From assembly GCA_030447545.1 (NCBI GenBank), contig JAUJOV010000018.1, forward strand, positions 1 to 50,347: a stretch of DNA of 50,347 bases. Reading direction: 5' to 3'. The notes under the pieces are model-generated. The model searched no databases, was not told where the DNA came from, and was given only the letters and a program-made list of their open reading frames with translations. Shown here in pieces: positions 2,958 through 36,803 of the stretch. Both the position numbers and the translations under genes were made by a program. Source of the stretch: Sphingomicrobium sp. (GTDB taxonomy: Bacteria > Pseudomonadota > Alphaproteobacteria > Sphingomonadales > Sphingomonadaceae). Numbering within the stretch: position 1 is the first letter of the stretch; every line of letters begins with the position of its first letter.

Positions 2958-3304
2958 GCCCGCCTCCTTTGCACTTGTGCATTAGCGACCATCGCTCATG
3001 CGCCCAAGCGGGTCGAGCGGGGTTCGAAAGCAAACATGCCGCCAATGTGCGCAATGGGTGGAAGGCGGACATTGCTTATCTACGGGTGCAGATAAACGAA
3101 GACCGCCCAGGTTATGCTGATAATTCAAGGGCTAATCGTCTTTGGCATGGACGAGGGTAAACAAATCGTAAATTGTCATCGGTCTTTCGCGAGTCGGGAA
3201 GGCGGGGCAGAGAACTTCAAGGCTGTACGGGTGCCGCTTACGGCTCGGAGGAATCCGAGGCGTCGGCCTGCACGCGTGCCGGGCCGGTGCAAGGGGGCGG
3301 GAAC
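2958..3304. other. Intergenic region with hairpin repeat, copy 3 (3044-3073)
   Basis: No gene is seen in these 347 bp between the reductase and the RTX gene. The repeat at 3044-3073 pairs AATGTGCGC imperfectly with GGCGGACATT. An A/T-richer stretch near 3158-3180 upstream of the RTX gene could hold its promoter, but no clear -35/-10 pair is visible. The apparent 63-residue N-terminal extension of the RTX frame covering 3114-3304 is Arg-rich and unlike the family, so I do not count it as coding. Confidence 0.5.
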
Positions 3305-6300
3305 ATGCCAACGGTCGACGGCACGGGCGGGCGGCGAAAGGCTCGACGGCACATTGGGCGACGACGTCATCAACGGCTTTGGAGGCAATGACGCGCTCTT
3401 TGGTTACGACGGTCACGACACGCTCAATGGCGGTGACGGTAACGATTCTCTCGATGGTGGACTCGGCTCGGACACGCTGAACGGCGGAGCGGGCGACGAC
3501 AATTTGCAGAGTGGCGCGGGCGACGACGTCCTCGAGGGCGGCGACGGCAACGATTTCCTCTACGATTCGCAGGGCACGAACAGGATGCTCGGCGGCGGCG
3601 GCAGGGACACCATCCATGCCTTTGCTGGTGCGACCGTTGACGGCGGTGCTGACAACGACACCATCCTTGTCAGCAGCTCTAATGTTGCCATCACCACCGG
3701 CACCGGCAGCGATACGGTTAGACCCACCTATTTCCGTAATAGCTCAATCATCAGCGACTTCACGGTGGGCGACGGCGGCGACATTTTCGACCTGACCGAT
3801 CTCCTTTCGACCATGCCCAGCTATCCCGGCGGCAATCCATTCGCCACCGGCCATATGCGGCTCGTGCAGAGCGGCACGGACACGCTCGTCCAGGTCGACT
3901 ACGACGGGTCAGGCACTAGCCATTCCTTCATTACGATCGCGACTCTCCAGAGCGTCACCGCCACCGACCTGACGGCCTTCAACTTCGGCGGGTATGGTAC
4001 CGACGGATCGATCCAAACAACGCCGAGCGGGATCCCGGACTCTGCCTCCGGCGACGAGGAGACGCAACTTGCCGGCCAGGTCAGTGCGATCGATCCGGAC
4101 AGCGCCACGCTCACGTTCGCGGTTGCTCAGGGCCCGTCCAACGGCACACTGACGTTCAACAGCGACGGCACCTGGCGCTATACCCCGAACGCAAACTTCC
4201 ACGGCACGGACAGCTTCACCTTCACCGCGAACGACGGCACGGAGACCAGCACTCCGGCGACCGTCACTCTGACCGTCCGGCCGATCGAGGACGAAGCGAC
4301 CGGCACCCTCGTCGTCAACGGTCCAGCGGCCGAGGGTGGAACCTTGACTGCGTCACTCGACAGCCTCGCCGACGCCGACGGTGCAACCGGCACTGCATGG
4401 CAGTGGCAGGAACTGGTCAATGGCAGCTGGGTCGACATAAGCGGCGCGAACAGCGCGACCTTCTCCATCCCCTCGGACCAGAGCTACGTCGACAGGACGG
4501 TGCGCGTCGTCACCACCAGCGACTCGCTCGGCGGCACCACCACATTCGAGGGCTCCGGCCAACAGATTGCGAACGTCAACGATGCGCCGCTTATGCTCCT
4601 CGACGGCGCAGCCGGCACCGCGGGCACAAGCGTCGGCTACACGGAAAATGCCGGCGCAGTGGTGCTTGCTCCCGGGGCACGCATCACCGACGCCGACTCG
4701 GCCAACTTCGACGGCGGCATGCTCAACGTCAGCTTCGCCGCCACGGAGACCGAGGGCACCTTGAGCATTCAGAACCAAGGCACCGGTGCGGGCCAGATCG
4801 GCGTCAGCGGGACCGACGTCACTTGCGGCGGCGTCGTCATCGGCACGTTCAGCACGACTGGCGATGCGGGTTCCGACCTGGTCGTCTACCTCAACGCTTC
4901 GGCGACGCATGAGGCGGTGCAGGCGCTCACTCGTTCAATCACCTACACAAACCCGTCCGACGCTCCTTCGAGCGATCCAAGATCGGTGTCATTCGCGCTG
5001 GTCGACGGAGATGGCAGCGCGCTCGGTGGCTCCGACACCGTCATCGCGGTCGCGAACCTGTTGGTGACGGCTGTTCAGGACGTGCCGTCGCTTCCGGCCG
5101 ATGTTGACGGAGTGTCGGGTGCGAACATCAACGAGCATCTGGCAGTCGGCAGCGAGATCGGCCTCGGCGCCAACTCAAGCGACGCGGATGGCGACTCGAT
5201 CGAATATTATTTCCGCGACAGCTCGGGCAGCAGGGTCCAGACGCTCGGCCACTTCACCATCGATGCTGTAACGGGCGTGGTGACGCTCGCGGCGGCGGTG
5301 AACTATGAGCTGGCGACCAACCATGTGCTCACCGTCTACGCGAGCGACGGTTCGGCCGAATCCGCGACTGAATTCACAGTGGACGTGGCGGATGGCGTCG
5401 AGCATCTGTTCACTGCCGGCGACGACGTGATCGACTTCAACGCTTTGGCTGACGGGGCATACGATTTCGACGGCTTGCAATACGATGGGCTTGGCGGCGA
5501 CGAGTTCGTCATCCTGCCGGACCTGGCAAGCGTCGACAGCGGCAACCCCTGGGACTTCACGCAGATCTTCGACGCCGGCGACGGCAACGACCAGGTCACG
5601 GGCGGCGACGGCGAAGATCGGGTCAGCGGCGGCGTCGGCAACGACATGCTCCTTGGCCGCGACGGCAGTGACGAGCTCGACGGTGGTGGTGGCTATGACC
5701 ATCTCGACGGCGGAGCAGGCGCCGACTCCATGCGCGGCGGCGCGGGCAACGACACCTACATCGTCGACAATGCCGGCGACCGGGCGATCGAGGTCAGCTC
5801 CACCGGCGGCACCGATCTGGTCAGGAGCAGCATCAGCTTCTCGCTTGCGGCGAATGTGGAAAACCTGACGCTCACCGGCAAGCAATGCGATCAACGGAAC
5901 GGGCAACGGCGCAAGCAACCTGCTCAACGGCAATTCGGCGGCCAACACCCTCGACGGGCGCGCCGGCGCCGACTCCATGCGCGGCGGCGGCGGCAACGAC
6001 ACCTACATCGTCGACCATGCCGGCGACCGGGCCGTCGAGGTCAGCTCCACCGGCGGCACCGATCTGGTCAGGAGCAGCATCAGCTTCTCGCTTGCAGCGA
6101 ATGTGGAAAACCTGACGCTCACCGGCAGCAATGCGATCAATGGAACGGGCAATGCCCTTGATAATGTCATCGAGGGCAATGCCGGCGCCAATGTGCTCGA
6201 TGGCGGCGCGGGCTGGGACAGGCTCGTGGGCGGCGACGGCGGCGACACGCTACTGGGCTCTGAAGGAAGCGACCGGCTCGAGGGTGGCATCGGCAACGAC

Positions 6301-13009: not shown

Positions 13010-13915
13010 GTGATCCTCGCCGTCACCGGCGGCACCGGCTTCGTCGGCTCCCGGCTGCTCGATCTTGCGCTGGAGCGCGGGCACCAGGTCCGAGCGCTCA
13101 CTCGTCGTCCGCAGCAGCCGAAGGACGGGATCGAGTGGATCGAGGGCGATCTCGAGAACCGCGAGGCGCTCGAGCGGCTGGTCGAGCGCAGCGACGCCGT
13201 CGTCCACGTCGCCGGAGTGATCAACGCGCCGAGCGCCGCGGCGTTCGAAGCCGGCAACGCCACGGGCACGCTCGCCATGCTCGCCGCCGCGACCGCGGCC
13301 GGTACGCGCCGCTTCGTCCACGTGTCGTCGCTCGCCGCCCGCGAGCGGAAGCTGTCGAGCTACGGCGCCTCTAAGGCGAGCGCGGAGGATCTGGTCGAGC
13401 ATTCCGGGCTCGACTGGGTGATCGTCCGCCCGCCGGCGGTCTATGGACCGGGCGACCGGGAGACACTCGAGCTGTTTCGCATGGCTGCCGCGGGTCTCAT
13501 CCTGCTTCCGCCGCGCGGCAAGCTGTCACTGATCCACGTCGACGACCTCGCGCGCCTGCTTGTGACGCTCGCTGAAAGCGCCAAGCCAATGAAGCAGCTG
13601 TTCGAGGTCGACGACGGCCGCCCCGGCGGCTGGACCCACCGCGAATTCGCCGTGGCCCTGGCGACGGCCGTCGGCCGCCGCGCCCTGTCCATTGCAACGC
13701 CGGGCGTTGTTCTGCGGCTAGGCGCCACGCTCGACCGGCTGATGCGCCGCAACAAGGCCAAGCTTACCCCCGACCGCGCCGCCTATTTCTGCCACCCCGA
13801 CTGGGTCGTCAGCTCGGGAAAAGCACCCGCGCCCGAGCTGTGGCGGCCGCAAATCGCGACCGAGCAGGGCCTCGCCGACACCGCCCGCTGGTACCGCGCG
13901 CAGGGCTGGCTTTAG
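13010..13915 (+). CDS. cerR: NAD(P)-dependent epimerase/dehydratase-like ceramide reductase candidate
   Basis: GTG start 10 bp after obgE; 301 residues. The Rossmann motif GGTGFVGS is at residues 7-14, VHVSSLAAR ends the fourth strand, YGASK is the YxxxK pair, and VIVRPPAVYGPGDRET is a strand of the extended SDR (NDUFA9-like) fold. The enzyme adjoining acp and spt in Caulobacter crescentus, CerR, is of this type and reduces 3-oxo-ceramide to ceramide. The cerR-acp-spt order here supports the same role. The assignment rests on fold plus context; other extended SDR substrates are possible. Confidence 0.75.
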   Translation: MILAVTGGTGFVGSRLLDLALERGHQVRALTRRPQQPKDGIEWIEGDLENREALERLVERSDAVVHVAGVINAPSAAAFEAGNATGTLAMLAAATAAGTRRFVHVSSLAARERKLSSYGASKASAEDLVEHSGLDWVIVRPPAVYGPGDRETLELFRMAAAGLILLPPRGKLSLIHVDDLARLLVTLAESAKPMKQLFEVDDGRPGGWTHREFAVALATAVGRRALSIATPGVVLRLGATLDRLMRRNKAKLTPDRAAYFCHPDWVVSSGKAPAPELWRPQIATEQGLADTARWYRAQGWL

Positions 13916-13983
13916 GCCCCGCACCCGCCCCATTCGCGCCCCATTGCGTTGCGAAAGCGGCGCCTGCCGCATAGAGGCCAGAC

Positions 13984-14229
13984 ATGACCGACCGGGACGA
14001 GACCTATTCGAGGATCGAGGCGCTCATCGAGCCGTTCAACAAGAAGGGCGTCGAGATCACCGAAGGCACGCGCTTTGCAGTCGACCTCGAGTGGGACAGC
14101 CTCACCGTCATGGACTTCGTCGCCTCGGTGGAGGACGAGTTCGACGTCTTGATCAGCATGAACCGCGTCGCCGAGATCGAGACCGTCGGCCAGCTGGTCG
14201 ATGCCGTGGACCAGCTCCAGGAAGACTGA
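13984..14229 (+). CDS. Acyl carrier protein of the sphingolipid pathway
   Basis: 81 residues with the phosphopantetheine serine in WDSLTVMDFV (about Ser40) and an acidic helix II/III surface (VEDEFDVLISMNRVAEIETV). Its stop overlaps the spt ATG (ATGA), which ties it to serine palmitoyltransferase: in Caulobacter a dedicated ACP supplies the acyl donor for Spt. It is distinct from housekeeping AcpP, which has DSLDTVEL. Cytoplasmic; needs 4'-phosphopantetheinyl transfer. Confidence 0.88.
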   Translation: MTDRDETYSRIEALIEPFNKKGVEITEGTRFAVDLEWDSLTVMDFVASVEDEFDVLISMNRVAEIETVGQLVDAVDQLQED

Positions 14230-15482
14230 TGACCGATCCTGGCCTGGAAATGGAGCTCGGCGGAAGCCGCGAGGGCGGCGGCTCGGGCGACCTGTTCTCC
14301 AAGTTCGACCCGCTGATCGAGCAGCGGCGCGCCTTGTTGGCGAAGGGCGTCACCGACCCGTTCAACCTGGTGATGGAGAGGGTCGAAAGCCCGGCCGTCG
14401 CAATCTGCAATGGCCGCCGGACGATCCTTCTCGGCACCTACAATTACATGGGCATGACCTTCGACCCCGACGTGGTCGCCGCGGGCAAGAAAGCGCTGGA
14501 CGAGTTCGGCTCGGGCACCACCGGAAGTCGCGTGCTCAACGGCACCTATGTCGGCCACCGCGAGGTCGAGCAGGCGCTTCGCGATTTCTATGCGATGGAC
14601 CATGCGATGGTCTTCTCGACCGGCTACCAGGCGAACCTCGGGATCATCTCGACCATCGCCGGCAAGGATGACTACATCATCCTCGACATCGACAGCCACG
14701 CTTCGATCTACGATGGATGCGCGCTCGGCAACGCGCAGGTCATCCCGTTCCGCCACAATGACGTGGACGCGCTCGAAAAGAGGCTGAGGCGGGTGCCCGA
14801 GGGCGCGGGCAAGCTGGTCATCCTCGAAGGCGTCTATTCGATGCTCGGCGACGTCGCGCCCCTTCGGGAAATGGTTGCCGTGTCCAAGGCAGCCGGCGCA
14901 ATGGTGCTGGTCGACGAGGCGCATTCGATGGGCTTCATCGGCCCCAACGGCCGCGGGGTCGCCGAAGACCAGGGCGTGATCGACGACGTGGACTTCATCA
15001 TCGGCACCTTTTCCAAGTCGGTCGGCACCGTCGGCGGCTTTTGCGTGTCGAACCACCCGAAGTTCGAGATCATGCGGCTGGTCTGCCGCCCCTATGTGTT
15101 CACCGCCTCGCTGCCTCCGTCGGTGGTGGCCACCGCGGCGACCTCGATCCGCAAGCTAACGGGCAGCTCGGCCAAGCGAGCCCACCTGTGGGAGAACAGC
15201 AAGCGGCTTCATGCCGGCCTCAAGCAGCTCGGCTTCACGCTCGGCACCGATCAGCCGCAGTCGGCGATCATCGCCGTGATCATGCCCGACCTCGAGACCG
15301 GAGCGGCGATGTGGGAGGCGCTTCTGAAGGAAGGCCTCTACGTCAATCTTGCCCGCCCGCCGGCCACTCCGTCGGGAATGACGCTGCTTCGCTGCTCGCT
15401 TTGCGCCGAGCACAGCGAGGAGCAGGTTGGCGAGATACTCGGAATGTTCGCTGCGGCGGGACGATCGACCGGCTGCATCTGA
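14229..15482 (+). CDS. spt: Serine palmitoyltransferase (alpha-oxoamine synthase)
   Basis: 417 residues. PLP-fold type I features: NYMGM near the N-terminus, GSGTTGSRVLNGTYVGHREVE less its last residue, DSHASIYDG (His stacking on PLP), DEAHSMG, and the lysine in GTFSKSVGTVGG. Serine palmitoyltransferase condenses L-serine with an acyl thioester to 3-ketosphinganine, the first step of sphingolipid synthesis. Other family members (AONS, KBL, ALAS) are less likely because of the coupled ACP and the cerR neighbour; the N-terminal 25 residues (GGSREGGGSGDLFSKF) are typical of Sphingomonas/Caulobacter Spt. Intact. Confidence 0.93.
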   Translation: MTDPGLEMELGGSREGGGSGDLFSKFDPLIEQRRALLAKGVTDPFNLVMERVESPAVAICNGRRTILLGTYNYMGMTFDPDVVAAGKKALDEFGSGTTGSRVLNGTYVGHREVEQALRDFYAMDHAMVFSTGYQANLGIISTIAGKDDYIILDIDSHASIYDGCALGNAQVIPFRHNDVDALEKRLRRVPEGAGKLVILEGVYSMLGDVAPLREMVAVSKAAGAMVLVDEAHSMGFIGPNGRGVAEDQGVIDDVDFIIGTFSKSVGTVGGFCVSNHPKFEIMRLVCRPYVFTASLPPSVVATAATSIRKLTGSSAKRAHLWENSKRLHAGLKQLGFTLGTDQPQSAIIAVIMPDLETGAAMWEALLKEGLYVNLARPPATPSGMTLLRCSLCAEHSEEQVGEILGMFAAAGRSTGCI

Positions 15483-15531
15483 ACGGGAAAGCCGCCTTCC
15501 GTCGGGTCCCGGACAGGTCTAGACTGGCGCC

Positions 15532-17595
15532 ATGAGACCGGCCGGGGAGGAGCTCCAGTTCGACTGGCGGCGGGGCGGCGCTGCAGCCGGCGCGCTGGTC
15601 GCCACGCTGATCCTGCTTGCCATGGTGGTCCTGGTCGCCATCTCAAACAATGCCCGCGACCTGGCGCTCGAGGGCGAACGCCGCGCCTACGACGTCAACC
15701 TGCTCACCCGCACCGTCGACGCGAGCATGGCCCGCTCGGAAGCCGCGCTCGGGCGTTTCGTCCTGGACGAGGACGAACGCGGATCGGGCAGCATCTACTA
15801 CAGCCAGTGGCGCCTCGCCGGTCAGCAGATCCGGCAGCTGGAACGGCTCGTTCGAAGCAACCCCGACCAGCGCCGCCGCCTCGCCGAGCTCCAGCAGCTC
15901 TACCAGCAGCGCGGCGAGGAGTTCGCCGCGGCCGCAAGGGCCACCCTGACCAAGCAGGCGCCGGAGGAACCACCTACTTCTACGTTGCCGCCCAATCGCC
16001 GACCGGAGGGCTGCTCGCCGCAAAGCTGGCCGAGATCGCCCAGGCCGAGCGGGCCCTTCTTCGCGAACGCATGGAGGAGACGCAGATGTTCTCGGCCGAA
16101 GCGGACCGGCTGACCGACTATCTGAGCTGGCTCGGGCTCCTCGTCGGCCTGGCGGCGATTTTCCTCGGCGTGGTGTCGATCCAGGCGATCCGCCAGTTCG
16201 CCTTCGCCAAGCGCCTTGCCGAGACCGAGTCGGAACGCGCCGAAGTGCTCGAGCAGGCGGTTGCCGAGCGCACGCGCGAGCTGATGGAAGCCAATGAGGC
16301 GCTGCGCTCGAGGCGGAGGAGCGGCAGGCGGCCGAAGCCCAGCTGCGCCAGGTCCAGAAGATGGAAGCGGTCGGCCAGCTGACCGGCGGCATCGCCCACG
16401 ACTTCAACAACATGCTCGCGGTGGTGGTCGGCGGCGTCGATCTCGCCCGGCGGCGGCTCAACGGCCCGCGCCGCGAAGTGCTCAACCATCTCAACAATGC
16501 GATGGAGGGCGCGGCGCGCCGCGGCCTTGACCCGCCGCCTGCTGTCCTTCGCCCGCTCGGAGCCGCTGCTTCCCGAGCGTGGACCCGACCGAGCTCGTGT
16601 CGGGCATGTCGGACCTGCTCGACCGCACGCTCGGCGAGCGAATCCACGTCGAGGTCGATCTCGCGCCCGACGCATGGCCGACCTACGTCGATCCGCATCA
16701 GCTCGAGAATGCGATCGTCAATTTGGCTGTCAACGCGCGCGATGCGATGGAAGGGCAGGGAATTCTACGGATCGCCACGCGGAACGCGACGCTCGGTGCG
16801 AACGAAGTGGGCGATATACGCCCCGGCGATTATGTTCAGGTCAGCGTCAGCGACACGGGCTGCGGGATGACCGCCGAAGTGCTCGCGCGCATTCGAGCCC
16901 TTTTTTCACGACCAAGCCGGTGGGCAAGGGCACGGGCCTTGGCCTCAGCCAGATCTTCGGCTTTGCCCACCAGTCGGGCGGCGAAGTCGGCATCGACAGC
17001 GAGGTCGGCAAGGGCACGACCGTGTCCATCTATTTGCCCCGGACGGCGGCGCTCGAGCCGCCGGTGCGGCTCCATCCCGCTGCGCAGCGCGCCGACAATG
17101 AAGCGACGGTGCCGGGCGCGCGGATCCTCGGTGGTCGAGGACGACCCGCGAGTGCGCGCCTCGACGATCGAAGCGCTTCAGGACCTCGACTACCAGCCGG
17201 TCGCCTGCTCAAGCGGGGCCGAGGCGATCGGCATTTTCGAGGCGCAGACATTCGATCTGGTGATCAGCGACGTGATCATGCCCGAGATGACGGGTCCCGA
17301 GCTGATCCGCTATCTGAAGAAGGACCACGAGGATTTCGCGGTGCTGTTCGTCACCGGCTATGTCGGCGAGGGCGAGACCGACGACCTGGTCGGCCATGAG
17401 CTTCTGCGCAAGCCGTTCACCGTCAATGCGCTGGCCAACGCGGTCGCCGTGGCCTTGTCGCGAGCCCTAGCGAACCGCGCCGGACCGGAGGAGCCGCGGC
17501 AGCAGGCTGATCGCGGCGAGAGTGGGTGCCGCCGCTGCCACGCCTTGATCTGGATGTTCGTGCCCGCGTGCCGGTTGATCTTCCACGCGATGTAG
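15532..17595 (+). CDS. Hybrid sensor histidine kinase with CHASE3-like sensor (multiple frameshifts)
   Basis: Read across frames the locus encodes TM1 ([20 protein letters not shown]), a CHASE3-like periplasmic helical domain, TM2 ([17 protein letters not shown]), a coiled linker, a HisKA H-box ([13 protein letters not shown]), an ATPase domain (N-box [34 protein letters not shown]) and a receiver domain (VVEDDPRVR, phospho-Asp in [14 protein letters not shown]). Frame changes fall near 15960, 16310, 16515, 16578, 16900 and 17130. All motifs are conserved, so sequencing error is more likely than decay. The receiver frame continues to 17595, over the 3' end of the opposing gene; a further indel near 17470 probably hides the true stop. 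The signal is unknown; it lies within the sphingolipid locus. Confidence 0.8.
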
Positions 17596-18326
17596 TCGAC
17601 GCCGCCGGTGAAGGTCGCGCTGGCCTTGGCGAGCCGCGCGACCGACAGGTGCTTGCCTTCCATGCGCCGGCGCCCCCAGCCGACCGACCGACGCGCCGGC
17701 TCGATCGCAGCAGCGGCGGCGCCGGCGAACCGGCGGTACCGCTCGGGCTCCACATCGACGACGGAGCCGATGCGCTCGCGCCGCTCGGCCCTGAGCTCGG
17801 CGGAGTAGGTGAGCGCGAAGGCGCGGCGCCACCAGTCGAGGGGGTCCTCGCCGTCGCGCCGGCCGGCGGCGGCAAGCAGGGTCGGTGCGGCCCTCGCGAC
17901 CGCGTCGATCGCCCGCTTGCGCGCCCCCTGGTCCGCCGCCCAGACAAGCCGCGACGGCTGAGCGAAGCGCGCCCAGACCGACACGCTTCGGGTCTCCGGC
18001 CCATTGAGGCGGTGGAAGTCGGCTTCGCTCAGAACCGCATATTTCGCTGCAAGCGCGCCCTGCTCGAAGTAGAAGACGTTGGGCGGAACAAGCCGGTTGG
18101 CGGTCGCCAGCCAGCGCTTCGCATAGGCCGAGCGATAGTCGGACACGATCAGGTAGAAGTCGAGCATCAGCCCTTCGAGCCGCTGCTGGCGCAGGCACGA
18201 GCCGTAGAACAGGACTGCTCGCGACGCTGCCCCGTGCTTCTGGGCGATCGCCTCGGCGATGGCGCGCACGCTTGGGTCGACAGGAATGGCGAGTTCCTCC
18301 GCGACGAGGTCGCGCAGTCTCGCCAC
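17467..18326 (-). CDS. Nucleotidyltransferase-like protein (CpgC-like; frameshift near the 3' end)
   Basis: Starts at ATG 18326 (MARLRDLVAEELAIPVD), 2 bp after the kinase gene. It has a nucleotidyltransferase-type core, VLFYGSCLR then LMLDFYLIVSDY (G-S ... D-x-[YF]), and otherwise resembles the Tam41-like cytidylyltransferase group: [26 protein letters not shown]. Near 17520 the frame shifts and the product ends [13 protein letters not shown] at 17467. In Caulobacter, a lipid kinase and a nucleotidyltransferase beside spt (CpgB and CpgC) take part in adding a phosphoglycerate headgroup to ceramide; the same pairing here suggests the same step. The reaction is inferred from context. Confidence 0.6.
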
Positions 18327-18328
18327 GG

Positions 18329-19309
18329 TTAAGCCGCCAGGCGGACGAACGAGAGCGGCTGCGCGGGGCTGAGGATCACCGGGCGGCCGATCTGCGTGCG
18401 GAACATTTCGCCGTCGAGGATCAGGTCGCTGTTCTCGCCCTCGATGCTGATCTCGTCGGCCTGCTCGAAATGCACTCCGCTCAGGGTGGCGCGCCCGAGC
18501 TTGCCCCGGAGAGTCGCCACGAACGCCCTCAGGACCGAAGCCGGCCGCTCCTCCACCGCGAGCATTTTGAGGCCGCCGCTCCTGGATCCCGCAACCTCGC
18601 TCGAAAGCAGCAGCTTTTCGAGCGTGGTGACGGCGAGCACGGAGAAACGCCCGCTGATCATGCCCCCCTTCTCGCGCACCGACACGCTGAGCGGCCTGGC
18701 GTCGGGCGGGAGGAAGCCGGCTTTCACCCGCAGCAGCAGCTTCGCCACCAGTGCGACCGCGGTGATCACATGCGCAACGCTGTTGGGAAGGCCCAACGGG
18801 TAGATCTTGTGCCTGCAGTAGAGCATCGTGTCGGCAAGGCCGGCGCCGCCGAGGAACATGCCGATGACCGGGCGATCGTCGCCGTCCCTGCCGTGCCTGA
18901 GCGCGATCAGCTCGCGCGGCACGATGTAGCGCTCAAGGTCGCCCTGGGCGATCTCCACCAGCCGCTCGAGCGCGCGGATGGGGTCGCCCTGCGCCCCGAG
19001 GTCGAGCGCGATGAGGTTGGTCTTGCCGTTCGGCAGCACCGCGACCGGCGGCGACTCGCTTCCGAAATGGCCGCCGTTGTACATTTCGGTCAAGGCCGCC
19101 TGGACGGTGCCGTCACCGCCGTTGATGATCAGCATCTTGGGCCGGACGCGCGCGATGGTCCTCAGCGCGTCGCCGATCTGCTCGGCGCGCTCCACCTCGT
19201 AGTGGAAAATGTCGGGATGCTCGGCGCAATAGTCGCGGATCCGCGACAGCTGCGCGAGATTGCCAGTCGACTTGGGGTTCGAGAGCAAAGCGATGCGGGG
19301 ACGCGGCAT
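18329..19309 (-). CDS. Diacylglycerol-kinase-family lipid kinase, candidate ceramide kinase
   Basis: 326 residues. DAGK catalytic features: IALLSNPKSTGN, the nucleotide loop LIINGGDGTVQAALTEM, VLPNGKTNLIALDLG, then a beta-sandwich domain ending DEISIEGENSDLILDGE. It phosphorylates a lipid hydroxyl with ATP at the inner membrane. The neighbourhood (Spt, ACP, CerR, nucleotidyltransferase) makes ceramide the best guess, as for Caulobacter CpgB; diacylglycerol or long-chain base are alternatives. Its stop is separated by 2 bp from the downstream nucleotidyltransferase start, so they form one operon. Confidence 0.72.
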   Translation of the reverse strand: MPRPRIALLSNPKSTGNLAQLSRIRDYCAEHPDIFHYEVERAEQIGDALRTIARVRPKMLIINGGDGTVQAALTEMYNGGHFGSESPPVAVLPNGKTNLIALDLGAQGDPIRALERLVEIAQGDLERYIVPRELIALRHGRDGDDRPVIGMFLGGAGLADTMLYCRHKIYPLGLPNSVAHVITAVALVAKLLLRVKAGFLPPDARPLSVSVREKGGMISGRFSVLAVTTLEKLLLSSEVAGSRSGGLKMLAVEERPASVLRAFVATLRGKLGRATLSGVHFEQADEISIEGENSDLILDGEMFRTQIGRPVILSPAQPLSFVRLAA

Positions 19310-19519
19310 GCCTAGGCCCCGAGCGCAGCCGCGCGCGGCGCGGGAGCTTGTGAAGTTCGCAGCAGGACGGCCGGGGAACGCAATTTCAGCATGAATTCAG
19401 ACGACCATCCGCTATTAAGCCCAGACGTGGGCCAAGCACCGGTCACGAAGGTACATCGGCCCACGTCGCTCTGTCGGTCCGCTTTGCGGCTAAATCATGG
19501 TGTTGGGACGACATAATCC

Positions 19520-20716
19520 GTGCCGCTTTCGCTGATCGACCGATACCTGGCGCGAAACATCGCCGTGCCGCTGCTGGGCACGCTGATCCTTGCGGCGATG
19601 CTGCTGGTGCTCGACAAGATGCTTCGCCTGTTCGACTTCGTCGTCACCACCGGCGGGCCGGTCAGCGTCGTGTGGCAGATGCTCGCCAATCTGATCCCTG
19701 AATATTTCTCGCTCGGGATCCCGCTCGGGCGTCTGCTCGGCGGCCTGCTCGCCTGTCGCTAGCTCGCCTTGTCGTCGGAGCTCGACGCCCTGCGCGGGAT
19801 CGGCTTCGGCTTCGGCCGCCTGCTGCGCGTGCCCTACGCCTATGCGGTCGTGCTGTTGCTCCTCAACCTGTTCATCGTCGGCTGGGTGCAGCCGTGGTCC
19901 CACTATGGCTATGAGCGGCTTCGCTTCGACCTGAGCTCGGGCGCGCTCGGCGCGTCGATGAAGGTCGGCGAGTTCAACCAGCTCGGCAAGCGCTTCACGC
20001 TGAGGATCGACCGCAGCGAAAACGAGGGGACCCAGCTGCACGGCATCTTCGTCCAGATGGACGACAAGTCGGGCATGTCGGTCGCTGCGACCGCACGGCA
20101 CGGCCGGTTCCTGTCGACCGATGATCCCGACACCATCCTGTTCCGCCTGGAGAACGGCAGGCTGATCCAGGACTCGCCGGGCTTTCCGGCGCCGCGAACG
20201 CTGACCTTCGACCTGTACGACCGGCCGAACAGCCTGCCGCCGATCGACCGCTTCCGCGGCCGCGGGCACGAGGAGCTGCAGGAGCTGACGATTCCCGAGC
20301 TCATGCGCCACGCCTACGCCCGGCCGGGACCGCGCGACGAGCGGCTGGCGGCACAGGCGCAGCTCCACTTCCGCCTGGTCGAAGTGCTGATGATGCTGAT
20401 GATCCCGCTGCTCGCGGTCGCGCTCGCCGTGCCGCCGAAGCGAAGCACGTCCTCGCTCGGCATCTTCGTGGGCATCGTGATCATCGTCGCCTATCACAAG
20501 GTCAACCAGTACGCCGAGCAGATGGGCGCGCAGGGCCGCATCGACCCGGTGCTCGCGCTGTGGATTCCGCTGATCCTGCTCTCGGCGATGATCTACTGGA
20601 TGTACCACGTGCTCGCCCATCGGCCCGGCGGTCAGCCGATCGGAGCACTCGAGCGAGCGTTCGCTCAACTCGCGCGCGGCGCGCGCAGGCTGATGCGGAG
20701 GCTGGGGCGCGCTTGA
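19520..20716 (+). CDS. lptF: LptF-type LPS export permease (one in-frame amber)
   Basis: GTG start 19520; one frame throughout, broken only by TAG at 19760-19762 (GGLLACR*LALSSELDALRG). Relatives carry Lys or Arg there, so a single substitution explains it. Six TM segments in the YjgP/YjgQ pattern (IAVPLLGTLILAAMLLVLD; YAVVLLLLNLFIVGW; three near the C-terminus) surround a periplasmic beta-jellyroll (about residues 130-270). With LptG and the ATPase LptB it extracts LPS from the inner membrane. Its stop overlaps lptG (ATGA). The essential role and intact remainder argue for a base-call error. Confidence 0.88.
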
Positions 20717-21810
20717 TGAGCCTTCGCATATTCCCGTCGCGCCGAGTGGCGCTCTACACGATGAAGCTGTTCATCACTCGCAGCCTCGCGGTGCTGGTCG
20801 GCCTCGTCATGATCCTGATGATGCTCGACCTGCTCGGCGAATCCGGCAAGATCCTGGCCGTTCCGGGCAATGGCGAAGCGGACCTGTGGCGCTACGTGTC
20901 GCTTCGTGTTCCTGTCCTGATCTCGCGCTTCCTGCCCTTCTCGGTGCTCCTGGGAACGCTGATCGCCTTTGCCGGGCTCAACCAGCACAGCGAGGTGGTA
21001 GCGATGAAGGCCGCCGGCATATCCGCGCACCAGTTGATCGCGCCGCTGATGGTCGCGAGCCTGGTGCTCGCGGGCGCACTGTTCGCGTTCAACGAGACGG
21101 TGGTGGTCAACTCCTCCCGCGCCGTCGAGGCGTGGAGCGACAATGATTACGAGCCGGTGCCGCCGGAAAGCGGGATCCTCACGAACGTCTGGCTGCTGCA
21201 CGAGGGCGACCTGCTCCAGGCGCGACACGTCGGAGGGCGGGGCCCGGATTTCCACGCGGAGGGCGTGAGGCTCTATGACCGCGAGGTCGGAACGCTTCGG
21301 CGCATCATCCAGGCGGAGCACGCGCAGCCGCAGGACGGCGCGTGGAAGCTGACGAACGTCAGGGTCTATGATTCGACCATGAACGTCGTGCGCCTGCAGC
21401 CCGAAATGAGGGCGCTTGCGGGACTCGAGCCCGACCAGCTGAGGCTCGCCAAGGTCGATCCGGAGAAACTCGACTTCTGGACGTTGAGGGAGCGCATCGC
21501 CGAGCTCGAGCAGGCGGGCCGGCGCTCAGACGCGGCCAAAGCCGGCCTGTGGCACAAGATTTCGGGGCCGCTGTCGACGGTGCTGATGCCGCTGCTTGCC
21601 GCGACCGCGGCGTTCGGCCTCGCCCGCTCGGGCCAGGTGCTGCTGCGCGCAAGCGTCGGAATGGCGCTCGGCTTCGCCTATTTCGTTGCGGACAATTTCA
21701 GCCTGGCGATGGGCAATGTCGGCGCTTACCCGCCGCTGCTCGCCGCCTGGGCGCCGTTCATCCTGTTCCTGCTGGTCGGGGAGACGGTGCTGATCCGAAG
21801 CGAGGAGTGA
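20716..21810 (+). CDS. lptG: LptG-type LPS export permease
   Basis: 364 residues; intact. TM1 LAVLVGLVMILMMLDLLGESG, less one residue, carries the LptG-type start; LISRFLPFSVLLGTLIAF and SEVVAMKAAGIS form the coupling-helix region; a periplasmic jellyroll follows (about 135-265), then C-terminal TMs. Forms a heterodimer with LptF. Sphingomonads keep Lpt components although they make glycosphingolipid rather than LPS; position beside the sphingolipid genes suggests a changed cargo. Ends directly against the convergent desaturase gene. Confidence 0.92.
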   Translation: MSLRIFPSRRVALYTMKLFITRSLAVLVGLVMILMMLDLLGESGKILAVPGNGEADLWRYVSLRVPVLISRFLPFSVLLGTLIAFAGLNQHSEVVAMKAAGISAHQLIAPLMVASLVLAGALFAFNETVVVNSSRAVEAWSDNDYEPVPPESGILTNVWLLHEGDLLQARHVGGRGPDFHAEGVRLYDREVGTLRRIIQAEHAQPQDGAWKLTNVRVYDSTMNVVRLQPEMRALAGLEPDQLRLAKVDPEKLDFWTLRERIAELEQAGRRSDAAKAGLWHKISGPLSTVLMPLLAATAAFGLARSGQVLLRASVGMALGFAYFVADNFSLAMGNVGAYPPLLAAWAPFILFLLVGETVLIRSEE

Positions 21811-22923
21811 TCAGCCGCGCGTCGCCTGCTGCCACGAGCTTGCCGCGAGCTGGCCGGCGAGGCGCGACAGGCCCGAATGGCTCGAGCGGTGGTAGACCGA
21901 GTCGGGATCGAGCGCCGCGCTGAGCCGGCGGTGCGCTTCGCCCAGTGCGTGATACGGCAGGCCCGGCAGCAGGTGGTGGAGCGCGTGATAGCGAAGGCCC
22001 ACCGGCGCCCACAGCACGGGCAGCGTGGCCGGCGGCGGCACGTTGACGCTGTCGAGGAACTGGGCGGTGACGCTCATCGGCTCGCCGTCATTTTCCCACA
22101 GATGGGCGGCGAGCGTGCGCACCTGGTTGAGCAGCATCACGCCGGAGTGAACGCCGAGGAAGATCAAGAAGGCGCGTAGCGGCACGGCGCCGCTGATCAC
22201 CAGGGCCAGCAAGGTGATCGCCCAGGCGCTCGCTGCGGCCTCTTGCACCGCCCACTGGCGCCTGAACCCGCCTTCGGGCTGCGGACGCCGGAACTGCGGA
22301 TTGATCTGCAGACCCGAGTAGCGCGCCACGATGATCCGCCGGAGGCGGGACGACAGCAGCGACAGCGGCGCCAGGACGGCGAAACGGATCAGCATTCCGA
22401 CCGGAGCGAGCGCAGCGGCGACCAGGAACAGCGGCAGGGTCCAGGGCTTCATCAGCGCCAGCGGCAGATATTCGGGATCATCGAGGGTGCCGTAATAGCG
22501 CTTCGCGTGATGCTGATTGTGGACTCCCTCGTAGAGGAAGGATGGCACCAGCAGCGGAATGCCGACCAGCGCATTCCACCCGGTGCGGAAGCCCGGCACC
22601 GCACGCTGCTTGAGGTGGGTCACCTCGTGAATGAAGCTCCCGGCGCGGTACAGCGCGAGGATCGCGACCAGGCCGGCCGCGAGCGTCAGCGCAGTCGAGC
22701 CCGCGAAGAATGCGGCGGCCATCGCCCCGTAGCCCACGAGCACCGAGCCGATCAGGTCGGCCCAGTAGATCGTCGCCCTGGGCAGGTTGAGGTCGCGAGT
22801 CAGGTCGGCGGCGGCCTTGAGCATCGCCTTGTCGTCGGCCGCGCTGCGCCGGACGGCACCGCGCACTTCCGGTGCGGCCGCCTCGCCCGCGCGCTGAAGC
22901 GTGTTGATTGAAACGTAAGTCAT
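21811..22923 (-). CDS. Membrane fatty-acid desaturase
   Basis: 370 residues with three histidine boxes: HEVTH (about residue 99), HNQHH (about 132) and a C-terminal RYHALHHLLP, giving the eight di-iron ligands of membrane desaturases/hydroxylases. At least four hydrophobic segments (LIGSVLVGYGAMAAAFFAG, and three more). It introduces a double bond or hydroxyl into an acyl chain using O2. In this neighbourhood it could act on the sphingolipid acyl or base chain, though a phospholipid desaturase role is equally compatible. Start ATG 22923 (MTYVSINTLQRAG). Confidence 0.85.
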   Translation of the reverse strand: MTYVSINTLQRAGEAAAPEVRGAVRRSAADDKAMLKAAADLTRDLNLPRATIYWADLIGSVLVGYGAMAAAFFAGSTALTLAAGLVAILALYRAGSFIHEVTHLKQRAVPGFRTGWNALVGIPLLVPSFLYEGVHNQHHAKRYYGTLDDPEYLPLALMKPWTLPLFLVAAALAPVGMLIRFAVLAPLSLLSSRLRRIIVARYSGLQINPQFRRPQPEGGFRRQWAVQEAAASAWAITLLALVISGAVPLRAFLIFLGVHSGVMLLNQVRTLAAHLWENDGEPMSVTAQFLDSVNVPPPATLPVLWAPVGLRYHALHHLLPGLPYHALGEAHRRLSAALDPDSVYHRSSHSGLSRLAGQLAASSWQQATRG

Positions 22924-23018
22924 GTTCGCGTCGTATGTGGCGGGAGATAGTGGCGCGAAAGTGGCGTCGCAACGGCACTCGGCTGGCGATTGGCGAAGGA
23001 GCGCGCTAGCCAGCCGCG

Positions 23019-24161
23019 ATGAGCTCCGCTGCGCTGACCGTACGGCCGGTCGCTACCAAAGCCGACCGCAAGGCGTTCGTCGACTTCGCCTGGGACGCAT
23101 ACCGCGGCGACCCGGCCTGGGTGCCGCCGCTCAAGGACGAAGTCCACGGACTTCTGAACCCGAAGAAGAACCCGTGGTTCGGCCATGCCCGCGCCCAGCT
23201 CTGGCTTGCCGAGCGCGGCGGCCGCGTGGTGGGCCGGATCAGCGGACAGGTCGACGAGCTCGTCCAGACGCACATGGCCGAAGGGACGGGCCAGTGGGGC
23301 CTGTTCGAGGCGCTGGACGGAGCGGCGGCCGCGGCGCTGATCGCAGCCGCCGAGGACTGGCTTCGGGCCGAGGTAATGACTCGCGCGCTCGGCCCTTTCA
23401 GCCTGTCGATCTGGGACGAGCTGGGGCTCGAGATCCACGGCCACGAAGAACCGCCCACGGCGATGATGGGCCACCATCGGCCCGAGTATCGCGCGTGGAT
23501 CGAGGCCGCGGGTTACACCAAGGCTGCGGACCTGCTGACCTACCAGGCGGAGATTTCGAGCTGGGCAGACCCGATGGTCATCCGGCTGATCCAGGCGGGT
23601 GAACGCAACCCGCGGATCCGCATCCGCAAGGTCGACAAGGCGCGCTTCGCCCAGGAGGCGGAAGTGATCATGGGCCTGCTCAACGATGCCTGGTCGCAGA
23701 ACTGGGGCTTCGTTCCGCTGACGGAGGCGGAGATCGCCTATGCAGGCAAGAAGCTGAAGCCGATCATCTACGAGGATCTGGTGCTGGTCGCGGAAGTCGA
23801 TGGCGAGCCCGCCGCCTTCATCCTGTGCATCCCCGACGTCAACGAGCTGATCCGCGACCTCGATGGCGAGCTGTTTCCGCTGGGATGGGCGAAGCTTCTG
23901 TGGCGGCTGAGGAAGCCTCGGACGCGGCGGGCGCGGATACCGCTGATGGGCGTGGCGAAGAAGCTCCACCACTCGCGGCTCGGCACCCAGCTGGCCTTGA
24001 TGCTGATCGAGCAGATCCGGCTGGCGCTGATCGGCAAGTTCGGCATCACCATTGGCGAGTTCGGCTGGATCCTGGAGGAAAATACGGGAATGCTGTCGAT
24101 CGCGGAGCTTCCCGGATCGAGCGTCAATCACCGGTACCGGGTGTTCGAAAAGGCGCTCTAG
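23019..24161 (+). CDS. GNAT-fold acyltransferase, candidate bacterial ceramide synthase (bCerS-like)
   Basis: 380 residues, intact. N-terminal TVRPVATKADRKAFVDFAW and DPAWVPPLKDEV, KNPWFGHARAQLWLAERGG and RVVGRISGQVD are the signature of a two-lobed GNAT family often mislabelled dATP pyrophosphohydrolase. A second lobe follows with AWSQNWGFVPLTEAEIAYA and MGVAKKLHHSRLG. The Caulobacter ceramide synthase that N-acylates 3-ketosphinganine is a GNAT-type acyltransferase encoded close to spt. Size, fold and location fit. I cannot show orthology without a search; another long-chain N-acyltransferase is the alternative. Confidence 0.62.
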   Translation: MSSAALTVRPVATKADRKAFVDFAWDAYRGDPAWVPPLKDEVHGLLNPKKNPWFGHARAQLWLAERGGRVVGRISGQVDELVQTHMAEGTGQWGLFEALDGAAAAALIAAAEDWLRAEVMTRALGPFSLSIWDELGLEIHGHEEPPTAMMGHHRPEYRAWIEAAGYTKAADLLTYQAEISSWADPMVIRLIQAGERNPRIRIRKVDKARFAQEAEVIMGLLNDAWSQNWGFVPLTEAEIAYAGKKLKPIIYEDLVLVAEVDGEPAAFILCIPDVNELIRDLDGELFPLGWAKLLWRLRKPRTRRARIPLMGVAKKLHHSRLGTQLALMLIEQIRLALIGKFGITIGEFGWILEENTGMLSIAELPGSSVNHRYRVFEKAL

Positions 24162-26646: not shown

Positions 26647-27813
26647 TTGAACCAAGCCAGTGCCGCCGGCGCGCGTGAGCGACGGCCCAAGCCACGCCCG
26701 CTACCCCAGCGTCCCCACTTCTCGTCCGGCCCCTGCGCCAAGCCGCCAGGCTGGCACCCGGGGCTGATCGACACGCGCAGCCTCGGGCGGTCGCACCGCT
26801 CGGCGCTGGGCAAGGCGCGGCTGCAAGAGGCGATCGAGCGGACCCACGCGCTGCTTGAGCTGCCCCGCGACTACCGGCTCGGGATCGTGCCTGCGTCCGA
26901 CACGGGCGCAGTCGAGATGGCGCTGTGGGCGCTGCTCGGCCCAAGGCCCGTGACGATGCTCGCCTGGGAAAGCTTCGGCCAGGGCTGGGTGACCGACGTG
27001 GTCAAGCAGCTCAGGCTCGAGGCGGACGTACGCACCGCGCCTTACGGCGAACTTCCGGACCTTCAGACCATCGACCCGGCGAGCGATGTCGTCTTCACCT
27101 GGAACGGCACGACCAGCGGAGTGCGGGTGCCCAACGCCCAGTGGATCGACGAGCACCGGAGCGGCCTTTCGATCTGCGACGCGACTTCCGGTGCATTCGC
27201 GCAGGACATCGACTGGCGAAGGATCGATGTCGGCACCTTCAGCTGGCAAAAGGCGCTCGGCGGCGAAGGCGGGCAAGGGATGCTGGTGCTCAGTCCGCGC
27301 GCGGTAGAGCGGCTGGAGCGACAGCCTGCAGGACGGCCGCTGCCCAAGATCTTCCGACTGACCAAAAGCGGCGCGCTGATCGAAGGCATTTTCAAGGGCG
27401 AGACGATCAACACGCCCTCGTTGCTCGCGGTCGAGGACTGGCTGGTGGCGCTCGACTGGGCGGAGCGGATCGGCGGTCTCGAGGCGCTGATTGCGCGGGC
27501 CGATGCCAATGCGGCCGCGCTCGACCGCTGGGTCTCCGGCGCCGACTGGATCGAGCATCTCGCGGCCGACCCCGCGATCCGCTCGAACACGTCGGTCTGC
27601 CTCCAGTTCGCCGACCGCACCGACGAGGAGGCCAACCAGGCTCGGCAGAAGGCGATGGTGAAGCTGCTCGAGGCCGAGGAAGCGGCGTTCGACGTGGGCG
27701 CGTACCGCGACGCCCCGCCGGGATTGCGCATCTGGTGCGGAGCGACCGTCGACACTGCGGACGTGGAGGCGCTCGGGCCCTGGCTCGACTGGGCATGGGA
27801 GGCGAGCGCGTGA
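26647..27813 (+). CDS. serC: Phosphoserine aminotransferase
   Basis: TTG start 26647 is chosen because GAGGAGA lies 6 bases upstream and the in-frame sequence before it is not family-like. 388 residues: RPHFSSGPCAKPPGW, RSHRSALGKARL, IVPASDTGAVEMALW, FTWNGTTSGVRVPN, CDATSGAFAQDIDW and the PLP lysine in TFSWQKALGGEGGQGM. It makes 3-phosphoserine from 3-phosphohydroxypyruvate and glutamate. Its TGA overlaps the GTG of serA, so the two consecutive steps are coupled, though in reverse order of the pathway. Confidence 0.95.
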   Translation: MNQASAAGARERRPKPRPLPQRPHFSSGPCAKPPGWHPGLIDTRSLGRSHRSALGKARLQEAIERTHALLELPRDYRLGIVPASDTGAVEMALWALLGPRPVTMLAWESFGQGWVTDVVKQLRLEADVRTAPYGELPDLQTIDPASDVVFTWNGTTSGVRVPNAQWIDEHRSGLSICDATSGAFAQDIDWRRIDVGTFSWQKALGGEGGQGMLVLSPRAVERLERQPAGRPLPKIFRLTKSGALIEGIFKGETINTPSLLAVEDWLVALDWAERIGGLEALIARADANAAALDRWVSGADWIEHLAADPAIRSNTSVCLQFADRTDEEANQARQKAMVKLLEAEEAAFDVGAYRDAPPGLRIWCGATVDTADVEALGPWLDWAWEASA

Positions 27814-29397
27814 GCGAGCAAGTGCGGGTGTTGATCGCGGACAAGATGGACCCGAAAGCCGCGGCGATCTTCCGCGAGCGGGGCATCGACGTCGACGAGA
27901 AGCCCGGCCTTTCGGCCGACGAACTAAAGGCGGTCATCGGCGGATATGACGGCGTCGCGGTGCGCAGCTCGACGCGGGTCACTGCGCCCGTCATGGACGC
28001 CGGCGTGCCGCGCCTGAAGGTGATCGGCCGCGCTGGGATCGGCGTGGATACGATCGACGTGCCGGCCGCGACCGCCCGCGGCATGGTGGTGATGAACACG
28101 CCGTTCGGCAATTCGATCACCACCGCCGAGCATGCGATCGCCATGGTCTTCGCGCTCGCTCGCGAGATCCCGTCGGCCGACCAGTCGACGCAAGCCGGTC
28201 GATGGGAGAAGAATCGCTTCGTCGGAGTCGAGCTCGCGGCAAAGACTCTGGCCCTGATCGGCTGCGGCAATATCGGCTCGATCGTCGCCGACCGCGCGCA
28301 CGGGCTCAAGATGAAGGTGATCGCCTACGATCCATTCCTCAGTCCGGAGCGGGCGCTGGAGCTCGGGGTCGAAAAGGTCGAGCTCGACGATCTCCTGCGC
28401 CGCGCCGACTTCATCTCGCTGCACACGCCGCTCACCGACCAGACGCGGGGGATCCTCTCGCGGGAGGCACTGGCGAAGACGAAAGCCGGCGTTCGCATCG
28501 TCAATTGCGCGCGCGGCGGGCTGATCGACGAAGCGGCGCTGAAGGAGGCGCTCGACGGCGGCCATGTCGCGGGCGCGGCGCTCGACGTGTTCGCCGAGGA
28601 GCCGGCCAAGGACAATCCCCTGTTCGGAACGCCGGGCCTGATCTGCACGCCGCACCTCGGCGCTTCGACCACCGAGGCGCAGGTCAATGTCGCGATCCAG
28701 ATTGCCGAGCAGATGAGCGACTTCGCTGCTCGGCGGCATCACCAACGCGGTCAACATGCCGTCGCTCTCCGCCGAGGAGGCGCCGCGGCTGAAGTTCTAC
28801 ATGGCGCTTGCCGAGAAGCTCGGGCGCCTGGTGGGCCAAGTGGCGGCAAGCGACATCCGCTCGGTGGCGGTCGAGGTCGAGGCGCGGCGGCCGAACTCAA
28901 CCTGAAGCCGGTGACCGGCGCGGTACTCGCCGGCCTGATGGGCACCTATTCCGACACGGTGAACATGGTCAACGCGCCGTTCCTCGCGAAGGAGCGCGGG
29001 CTCGACCTGCGCGAGGTACGCCACGACCGGGAGGGCGACTCATCACACGCTCGTCGCGGTGACCGTCGGGACGGAGGACGGCGAGAAGCGGGTTGCCGGG
29101 ACCCCTGTTCGGCGGCCGCGCGCCGCGGCTTGTCGACATCTTCGGCGTTGCGGTCGAGGCCGAGCTGTCGCCAAGGATGATCTACATCGTCAACAATGAC
29201 GCGCCGGGCTTCATCGGCGCGCTTGGCACCACGCTCGGCCAGGCCGGCGTCAACATCGCCACGTTCAACCTCGGCCGGCGCAAGGCCGGCGGCGAGGCCG
29301 TGGCGCTGGTCGCCGTCGACCAACCGATCACGCCGGAGCTGACCGACGAGCTCTGGCGCCTTCCCGAGTGCGCGAGGTGGTGCCGCTGACGTTTTAG
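27810..29397 (+). CDS. serA: D-3-phosphoglycerate dehydrogenase (frameshifted in its 3' half)
   Basis: GTG start overlaps the serC stop. Residues 1-305 are intact: RVLIADKMDPKAAAIF, VIGRAGIGVDTIDV, GCGNIGSIVADRA (NAD site), NCARGGLIDE and TPHLGASTTEAQ. After about 28730 the frame changes at least five times (near 28730, 28880, 29035, 29095, 29370), yet the regulatory part is recognisable: GITNAVNMPSLSAEEAP, GAAAELNLKPVTGAVLAGLM less its end, then an ACT domain (MIYIVNNDAPGFIGALG). The last shift restores VREVVPLTF and TAG 29395-29397. It oxidises 3-phosphoglycerate in the first step of serine synthesis. Conservation in every frame points to read errors. Confidence 0.9.
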
Positions 29398-36788: not shown

Positions 36789-36803
36789 TGATCTTGTGCG
36801 GCC

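Follow-up and report, generated by a model that had tools for sequence, protein, structure and literature searches.

A 50,347-nucleotide stretch of a Sphingomicrobium sp. genome (contig JAUJOV010000018.1; hereafter the window) carries at positions 13,010-24,161 a set of genes for ceramide synthesis together with an lptF-lptG pair of the family labelled as lipopolysaccharide (LPS) exporters. We consider it probable, at roughly 0.78, that a sphingomonad without LPS uses this locus to make and export its sphingolipid, and that LptF and LptG (LptFG) export sphingolipid and not LPS. Open reading frames (ORFs) and profile matches give the order cerR, acpR-spt, hybrid kinase, nucleotidyltransferase, DAGK-type kinase, lptF-lptG, desaturase and GNAT-type acyltransferase, and the ORF list with Pfam and NCBIfam profiles places the cluster where the initial annotation had put it. 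Our observations concern gene content, linkage, co-occurrence across genomes, tree position and the presence of one LptD. The earlier suggestion that the permease may export sphingolipid is probably correct, judging from the co-occurrence of LptFG with spt and lpxC, its tree position and the single LptD.

The comparison within the window's order covered 147 genomes, counting the window's own; completeness is 90% or more and contamination 5% or less in 145 of them. As the initial annotation had expected, a search for lpxC gave no match in any of the 147. Of 14 genomes of the order tested for LpxK, 13 gave no match and the fourteenth only one below the cut-off; LpxK was not found in G000. A strong Spt (at least 387 bits) is present in 146 of the 147 genomes and LptF_LptG in 144, the three without it being fragmented assemblies of 100-370 contigs. 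Of the 143 genomes with both, 93 have LptFG no more than 15 kb from spt (39/86 in the window's family, 54/57 in seven other families), counted with one LptFG place per genome and with coordinates compiled by hand. The neighborhood is widespread and not peculiar to this contig, and with linkage at this frequency, above all outside the window's family, we reject chance as its cause.

Co-occurrence was examined in 143 alphaproteobacterial genomes, where a match to NF047603 of at least 450 bits counted as spt; this threshold was chosen once the gap to the next matches (at most 263 bits) had become apparent. By this measure spt occurs in 23 genomes and lpxC in 121. Eight genomes have both, with 4, 5, 2, 4, 4, 4, 4 and 4 LptF_LptG matches, that is, at least four in 7/8. 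Among the 113 genomes with lpxC and no spt, one has four or more (G160, two of them weak), G279 has three and the rest have at most two. Fisher's exact p for this doubling (7/8 vs 1/113) is 1.0e-9, which is only a guide because the genomes share ancestry; the tallies were compiled by hand. Of the 22 genomes in the lpxC-negative set, two (G268 and G282) were placed there by inference from the match list. Fifteen of the 22 carry spt, and exactly two LptF_LptG matches were found in 14 of them and none in G193. LpxK was found in none of these 15 and in all eight genomes with both spt and lpxC. The seven genomes with neither spt nor lpxC split into four without LptF_LptG and three with two matches; the latter (G187, G190 and G246) have LpxK, LptFG and LptD and probably keep LPS. 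Neither LptFG nor LptD was found in the other four, namely G220 (0.7 Mb, LpxK present) and G151, G212 and G228 (no spt, lpxC or LpxK found). Beyond the sphingomonads, nine family groups in the class sample carry spt with neither lpxC nor lpxK found. Within family f26, G164 has lpxC without spt and G261 has spt without lpxC.

The spt-linked pairs also form a type of their own. A first LptG tree grouped all 16 spt-negative controls and four second pairs from genomes with both spt and lpxC on the LPS side; the spt-linked pairs were on the opposite side, except for two loci of a third kind. A more careful LptG tree resolved an spt-linked type of 39 rows that includes the window (support 95/91) and an LPS type of 23 rows (support 100/100), and the LptF tree recovered the same spt-linked type of 39 rows, window included, with SH-aLRT 100. 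In both proteins the window pair groups with the spt-linked LptFG of Caulobacter and falls outside the LPS-type clade, and we reject its assignment to the LPS type. A candidate pair was available for 21 spt-positive genomes (14 without lpxC and seven with two pairs); 20 were placed, all 20 in the spt-linked type, and G012 (fetched as L091) was left unplaced. In G163, G215 and G265, which have both spt and lpxC and carry their pairs at a distance from spt, one pair each is of the spt-linked type; the other pair is of LPS type in G215 and G265 and too fragmentary to place in G163. The trees exclude pairs with a member shorter than 300 amino acids (e.g. L058 of G163). L068 (the second pair of G160) and L076 (G190) were dropped as long branches from the LptF tree, the careful LptG tree and the named-locus comparison, and L150 and L158 were also dropped from the E. 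coli-rooted tree and the residue comparison. The window's order contributed to the trees 12 of its fetched LptFG loci, namely the window, ten other loci and an extra pair of G071. Some genomes of this order (G003, G050, G056, G084 and G071) show four to five LptF_LptG matches; the extra G071 pair (L092, G071:C57) groups with the spt-linked type.

A residue signature accompanies the split. Positions 40-41 of LptG (E. coli numbering), which contact the lipid A 4'-phosphate and inner core in an LPS-bound structure (PMC6744409), are both basic in 19/23 LPS-type and 0/39 spt-linked sequences. The window pair resembles the enteric LPS exporter LptB2FG in its LptF/LptG family and in the one LptD; unlike the enteric LptG, that of the window does not have this lipid A-contacting dibasic pair, and the window pair stands outside the alphaproteobacterial LPS-type clade.

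LptD (PF04453) was found as a single copy in 45 of 50 genomes searched, including the eight with spt and lpxC. The five in which it was not found (G193, G151, G212, G220 and G228) are all without LptFG too. In six of the eight genomes with both spt and lpxC, LptD adjoins the LPS-type pair (in G163 the unplaced pair), and in none does it adjoin the spt-linked pair. One LptD beside two LptFG pairs points to an apparently single outer-membrane exit, and the two LptFG branches would join either at the bridge or at LptD.

Two further groups of LptFG loci were observed. A third clade near acpR-spt, separate from both types, comprises L126, L150, L151, L158 and L171 (Nitrospirillum, Elstera and three records of metagenome-assembled genomes). 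No GNAT match was found in the fetched stretches of these loci, and cerR was found only in L150, more than 9 kb from spt. This clade could be an independent recruitment. The spt-linked LptFG of Solimonas marina (L144), a gammaproteobacterium, is nested inside the alphaproteobacterial spt-linked clade, a placement that fits an earlier suggestion that the cluster has passed from one class to another (PMC11324152).

Judged from sequence, the locus is a sphingomonad member of the published Caulobacter-type ceramide/phosphosphingolipid cluster. All Caulobacter identities given here refer to syntenic genes of Caulobacter sp. AP07 (L129), not to C. crescentus proteins. The cerR-like dehydrogenase/reductase gene, a ceramide reductase candidate (13010..13915, forward strand), matches Epimerase/NAD_binding_10, and its product is 41% identical over 310 amino acids to that of the gene upstream of acpR-spt in AP07. 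The acpR-like acyl carrier protein gene (13984..14229, forward, PF00550) lies directly upstream of spt (14229..15482, forward), whose ATG at 14229 overlaps the acpR stop by one base (TGATG). Such an acpR-spt operon is the rule in Rhodobacteria (PMC9386255), and the window follows it. The Spt assignment is certain at the level of sequence comparison, with 803.6 bits to NF047603 (cut-off 670) and E 1.4e-200 to the solved Spt structure 2x8u; these searches were run from a start at 14226, one residue more than from the ATG. The GNAT-type candidate ceramide synthase (cerS/bCerS; 23019..24161, forward) matches Acetyltransf_1 weakly (22.4 bits, above the cut-off of 20.7), yet it is 44% identical over 376 amino acids to the product of the gene 3' of lptG in AP07, and the position 3' of lptG is that published for cerS (CC_1154) in C. 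crescentus (PMC11324152). The possibility raised initially that the GNAT protein belongs to an unrelated family did not materialize, and cerR and cerS are both assigned as orthologs of the Caulobacter genes. Comparison of the kinase and the GNAT protein with PDB sequences by phmmer gave no match at E 1, and the A2 profile gave only a weak nucleotidyltransferase match there (E 0.16). Repeats within the locus were limited to short, low-identity matches.

The C. crescentus cluster CC_1168-CC_1152, as described in PMC11324152, resembles the window in cerR-acpR-spt, a CC_1161-type nucleotidyltransferase, a CC_1160-type kinase, lptF2-lptG2 and cerS, and its gene order also occurs in AP07, where counterparts of cerR, the nucleotidyltransferase and the kinase follow the same order as in the window. 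It differs in having aasR, CC_1159, CC_1158, CC_1153 and CC_1152, which we did not recognize in the window; the window for its part has a desaturase and a hybrid kinase in addition. In the Caulobacter control genome lpxC is retained, and in the window's order it was not found. Sphingomonas wittichii, known here from papers alone, has cerR, acpR, spt and cerS in one locus-tag span, Swit_3897-Swit_3908 (PMC9386255), and orthologs of 16 of 17 Caulobacter genes in six distant regions; orthologs of the cluster genes were reported in six other bacteria, S. wittichii included (PMC11324152).

Export of sphingolipid by LptF2/LptG2 has been proposed before, for Caulobacter. The 2024 paper PMC11324152 proposed CC_1168, CC_1156 and CC_1155 as a second LptC, LptF and LptG for sphingolipid transport and stated that the route of sphingolipids to the outer membrane was not known; further context is found in PMC11087976 and PMC9275681. 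Our literature search, which left most subscription journals outside its reach, linked LptF2/LptG2 to sphingolipid in PMC11324152 only, and none of the matches listed was a comparative test of LptFG against sphingolipid genes. What is new here is the broad comparative test.

The kinase and the nucleotidyltransferase bear on the headgroup. The DAGK-type lipid kinase (18329..19309, reverse strand; PF00781, E 3.4e-14) is only 28% identical over 321 amino acids to the syntenic AP07 gene product; its DAGK_cat domain and position make it a candidate for cpgB/CC_1160. The nucleotidyltransferase (17520..18326, reverse, the homologous part of ORF 17358-18326) is 34% identical over 287 amino acids to the protein encoded at the same position in AP07. 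It has no Pfam match of its own at E 0.001; a profile built for it matched in 68 of the loci L035-L194, and in a 42-row alignment YGS, D56 and K95 are invariant. A relative from the same genus (L177, 75% identical to the window's) was modelled with pLDDT 93.1, and the five best PDB matches of this model are Tam41 CDP-diacylglycerol synthases (chains of 6ig2, 7ecd and 6ig4), with TM scores of about 0.5 and identities of 14-16%; Pfam Tam41 itself matches 2 of the 42 relatives. The likeness to Tam41 lies in the fold, the YGS motif and the D motif. The difference lies in the low TM score and identity and in the putative substrate, perhaps ceramide-1-phosphate for the window enzyme. By sequence and model this protein fits CpgC (CC_1161), and we rejected CpgD since position and the Tam41 fold point to CC_1161. 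CC_1161 is suspected of activating ceramide-1-phosphate (PMC11324152), which the Tam41-like fold would fit; a 2025 paper calls the mechanism of CpgC unidentified (PMC12275187).

The initial annotation spoke of a near-complete ceramide and anionic sphingolipid pathway. One conserved ceramide locus is well borne out, and the near-complete anionic part is overstated, as the kinase and nucleotidyltransferase are missing from 4 of 14 loci of the window's family (they are present in 6/6 loci of other families) and aasR, cpgA and cpgD were not recognized among the ORFs examined, with no genome-wide search made for them. These 20 order neighborhoods were picked for having LptFG near spt, and the presence of LptFG in them is not a count. 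Three loci of the window's genus (L180, L181 and L182; genomes G143, G129 and G085) have no kinase or nucleotidyltransferase at the locus and keep LptFG, the desaturase and GNAT. A CPG2 (phosphoglycerate-type) headgroup is not supported by our analysis. Sphingomonad sphingolipid headgroups are mainly sugars. In Sphingomonadaceae, aasR has been reported distant from the cluster (PMC9386255).

The proposed sequence of events takes its order of reactions from the Caulobacter proposal. Spt, supplied by AcpR, would make 3-oxo-sphinganine, the GNAT enzyme would then N-acylate it and CerR would reduce the product. The kinase may phosphorylate part of the ceramide, which the Tam41-like enzyme could then activate with CTP. 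LptF and LptG would form the membrane part of an Lpt-type ATP-binding cassette exporter that draws sphingolipid out of the inner membrane and hands it over a shared Lpt bridge to the single LptD. Both LptFG branches would coexist in makers of both lipids, and only the spt-linked branch would be left in genomes without lipid A genes.

We weighed this explanation against others. That the pair is an ordinary LPS exporter beside spt by chance, its lipid A genes having been missed, could be argued from NCBIfam, which labels the LptG as an LPS export permease above the cut-off (TIGR04408, 291.8 bits, cut-off 240), and from the window genome being only 70% complete; with lpxC missing across an order sample of largely complete genomes, LpxK not found in 13/14, and LptF and LptG both outside the LPS-type clade, this is contradicted already and highly improbable. 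That the substrate is a different lipid or glycolipid of the outer membrane in LPS-less bacteria, with the linkage of the pair to spt reflecting a shared envelope regulon, is quite unlikely. Control genomes in which LpxC was not found do have LptFG, and LptFG is kept at the 4/14 family loci without kinase and nucleotidyltransferase, both of which suit such a substrate, but the doubling of LptFG tracks spt in genomes with lpxC (7/8 vs 1/113), and Caulobacter CC_1156 mutants show a cofitness of 0.60 with the phosphosphingolipid gene CC_1159 (PMC11324152). A narrower idea, that only phosphorylated (CPG-type) sphingolipid uses the exporter and that LptFG, kinase and nucleotidyltransferase are one anionic-lipid module, we regard as unlikely. 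G193 and G202, both spt-positive class genomes without spt-linked LptFG, have cerR, acpR and GNAT at their spt loci and no kinase or nucleotidyltransferase there, and three cultured Reyranella-group spt loci (L099, L108 and L110) are likewise without these two genes, as this idea would predict; against it, LptFG is retained in the same-genus genomes G143, G129 and G085, and in G005 of the window's family, at loci that have neither kinase nor nucleotidyltransferase.

Several points weigh against sphingolipid export by LptFG as we propose it. G193, a Reyranella-like genome in one 5.4 Mb contig, has spt, and LptFG, LptD, lpxC and LpxK were not found in it; G202 has spt and only an LPS-type pair. 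Neither genome has the kinase or the nucleotidyltransferase at its spt locus, so the exporter is apparently dispensable for ceramide alone. LptFG occurs without LpxC in the controls Thermus composti, Deinobacterium chartae and Thermotoga maritima, so the presence of LptFG in a diderm without LPS does not by itself point to sphingolipid, and elsewhere its substrate can be another lipid; to our knowledge, none of the three is known for sphingolipid. In 47 of 86 genomes of the window's family, the LptFG place used is distant from spt or sits on a different contig. A single weak LptC match was obtained in 40 of the 50 genomes and none in ten, the window's among these ten, and no second LptC was seen. 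The lipid A contacts 34, 133 and 136 of LptG, scored as basic residues, do not separate the two types. E. coli LptG joins the tree between the two clades, so the tree does not set the root or direction of the split. Pairs not beside spt (G163, G215, G265, G202, G203 and G160) were assigned to types after the first LptG tree, with the LptF tree as an independent check. The window's lptF has a TAG in frame, and both the substrate and the export route are predictions from sequence data.

Reyranella-type genomes deserve separate mention. In G193 (locus L041), whose Spt is 90% identical to Reyranella records, cerR-acpR-spt-GNAT is kept with neither LptFG nor LptD found; no lpxC was found in G193 or in the genomes of the Reyranella-group loci L099, L108 and L110. 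Among 80 named spt loci fetched, 47 had enough flank, and an LptFG pair was present in 29; a locus needed at least two LptFG matches of 200 amino acids to count as having the pair. The 18 without include six from Reyranella or Enhydrobacter and four further records that rank among these six. A search for lpxC covered 45 of the named spt-positive genomes behind the 80 loci, and 13 of them gave no match, with lpxC alone checked and genome completeness not given. These 13 include the cultured Rhodospirillaceae R-7 (with an LptFG pair next to its spt), Enhydrobacter aerosaccus ATCC 27094, Reyranella aquatilis KCTC 52223 and Reyranella soli NBRC 108950.

The copy of the locus in the window is imperfect. 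Of the permease genes, both forward and both in the spt-linked clade, lptF (19520..20716) has its stop at 19760-19762 and matches PF03739 on the part after it, and lptG (20716..21810) matches PF03739 as well. The CHASE3 hybrid histidine kinase gene (15532..17595, forward) has CHASE3 and HATPase_c/Response_reg on separate ORFs, and its match to relatives shifts frame, whereas a single stop-to-stop ORF of 661-688 amino acids is present in 6/6 same-genus loci. The homology of nucleotidyltransferase ORF 17358-18326 to relatives ends near 17,520. The assembly consists of 99 contigs, and the breaks in lptF and the hybrid kinase gene are likely assembly errors, with real decay as the alternative. No match to the hybrid kinase was found at the locus in six loci from other families of the order. 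Its supposed tuning of the locus, put forward initially, found no evidence here, and the gene is frame-broken in this copy. The fatty acid desaturase/hydroxylase family gene (21811..22923, reverse; PF00487, E 2.2e-25) was present at 14/14 loci of the window's family and 0/6 of other families, one of which (L192) is cut by a contig end.

Elsewhere in the window, a single ORF at 35753-37267 combines a DnaJ C-terminal domain with a BrkB domain, either as a true fusion or through a lost stop. The product of 3114-6161, 1015 amino acids long, carries both RTX calcium-binding repeats and domains of the cadherin-like type. At 26925-29180, one long ORF appears to interleave a frame resembling phosphoglycerate dehydrogenase by eye with other frames, perhaps owing to another frame break.

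The split of LptFG that tracks spt, its residue signature and the single LptD make the question of sphingolipid transport testable. LptF and LptG proteins labelled for LPS export in sphingomonads are probably mislabelled. The cultured strains R-7, Enhydrobacter aerosaccus, Reyranella aquatilis and Reyranella soli are candidates for a check of LPS. There is an even chance, in our estimate, that an old second Lpt branch, devoted to sphingolipids and using the same LptD as the LPS branch where both lipids are made, enabled the loss of LPS in several lineages besides the sphingomonads, and that Reyranella-type bacteria went on to drop Lpt as well while keeping ceramide synthesis.

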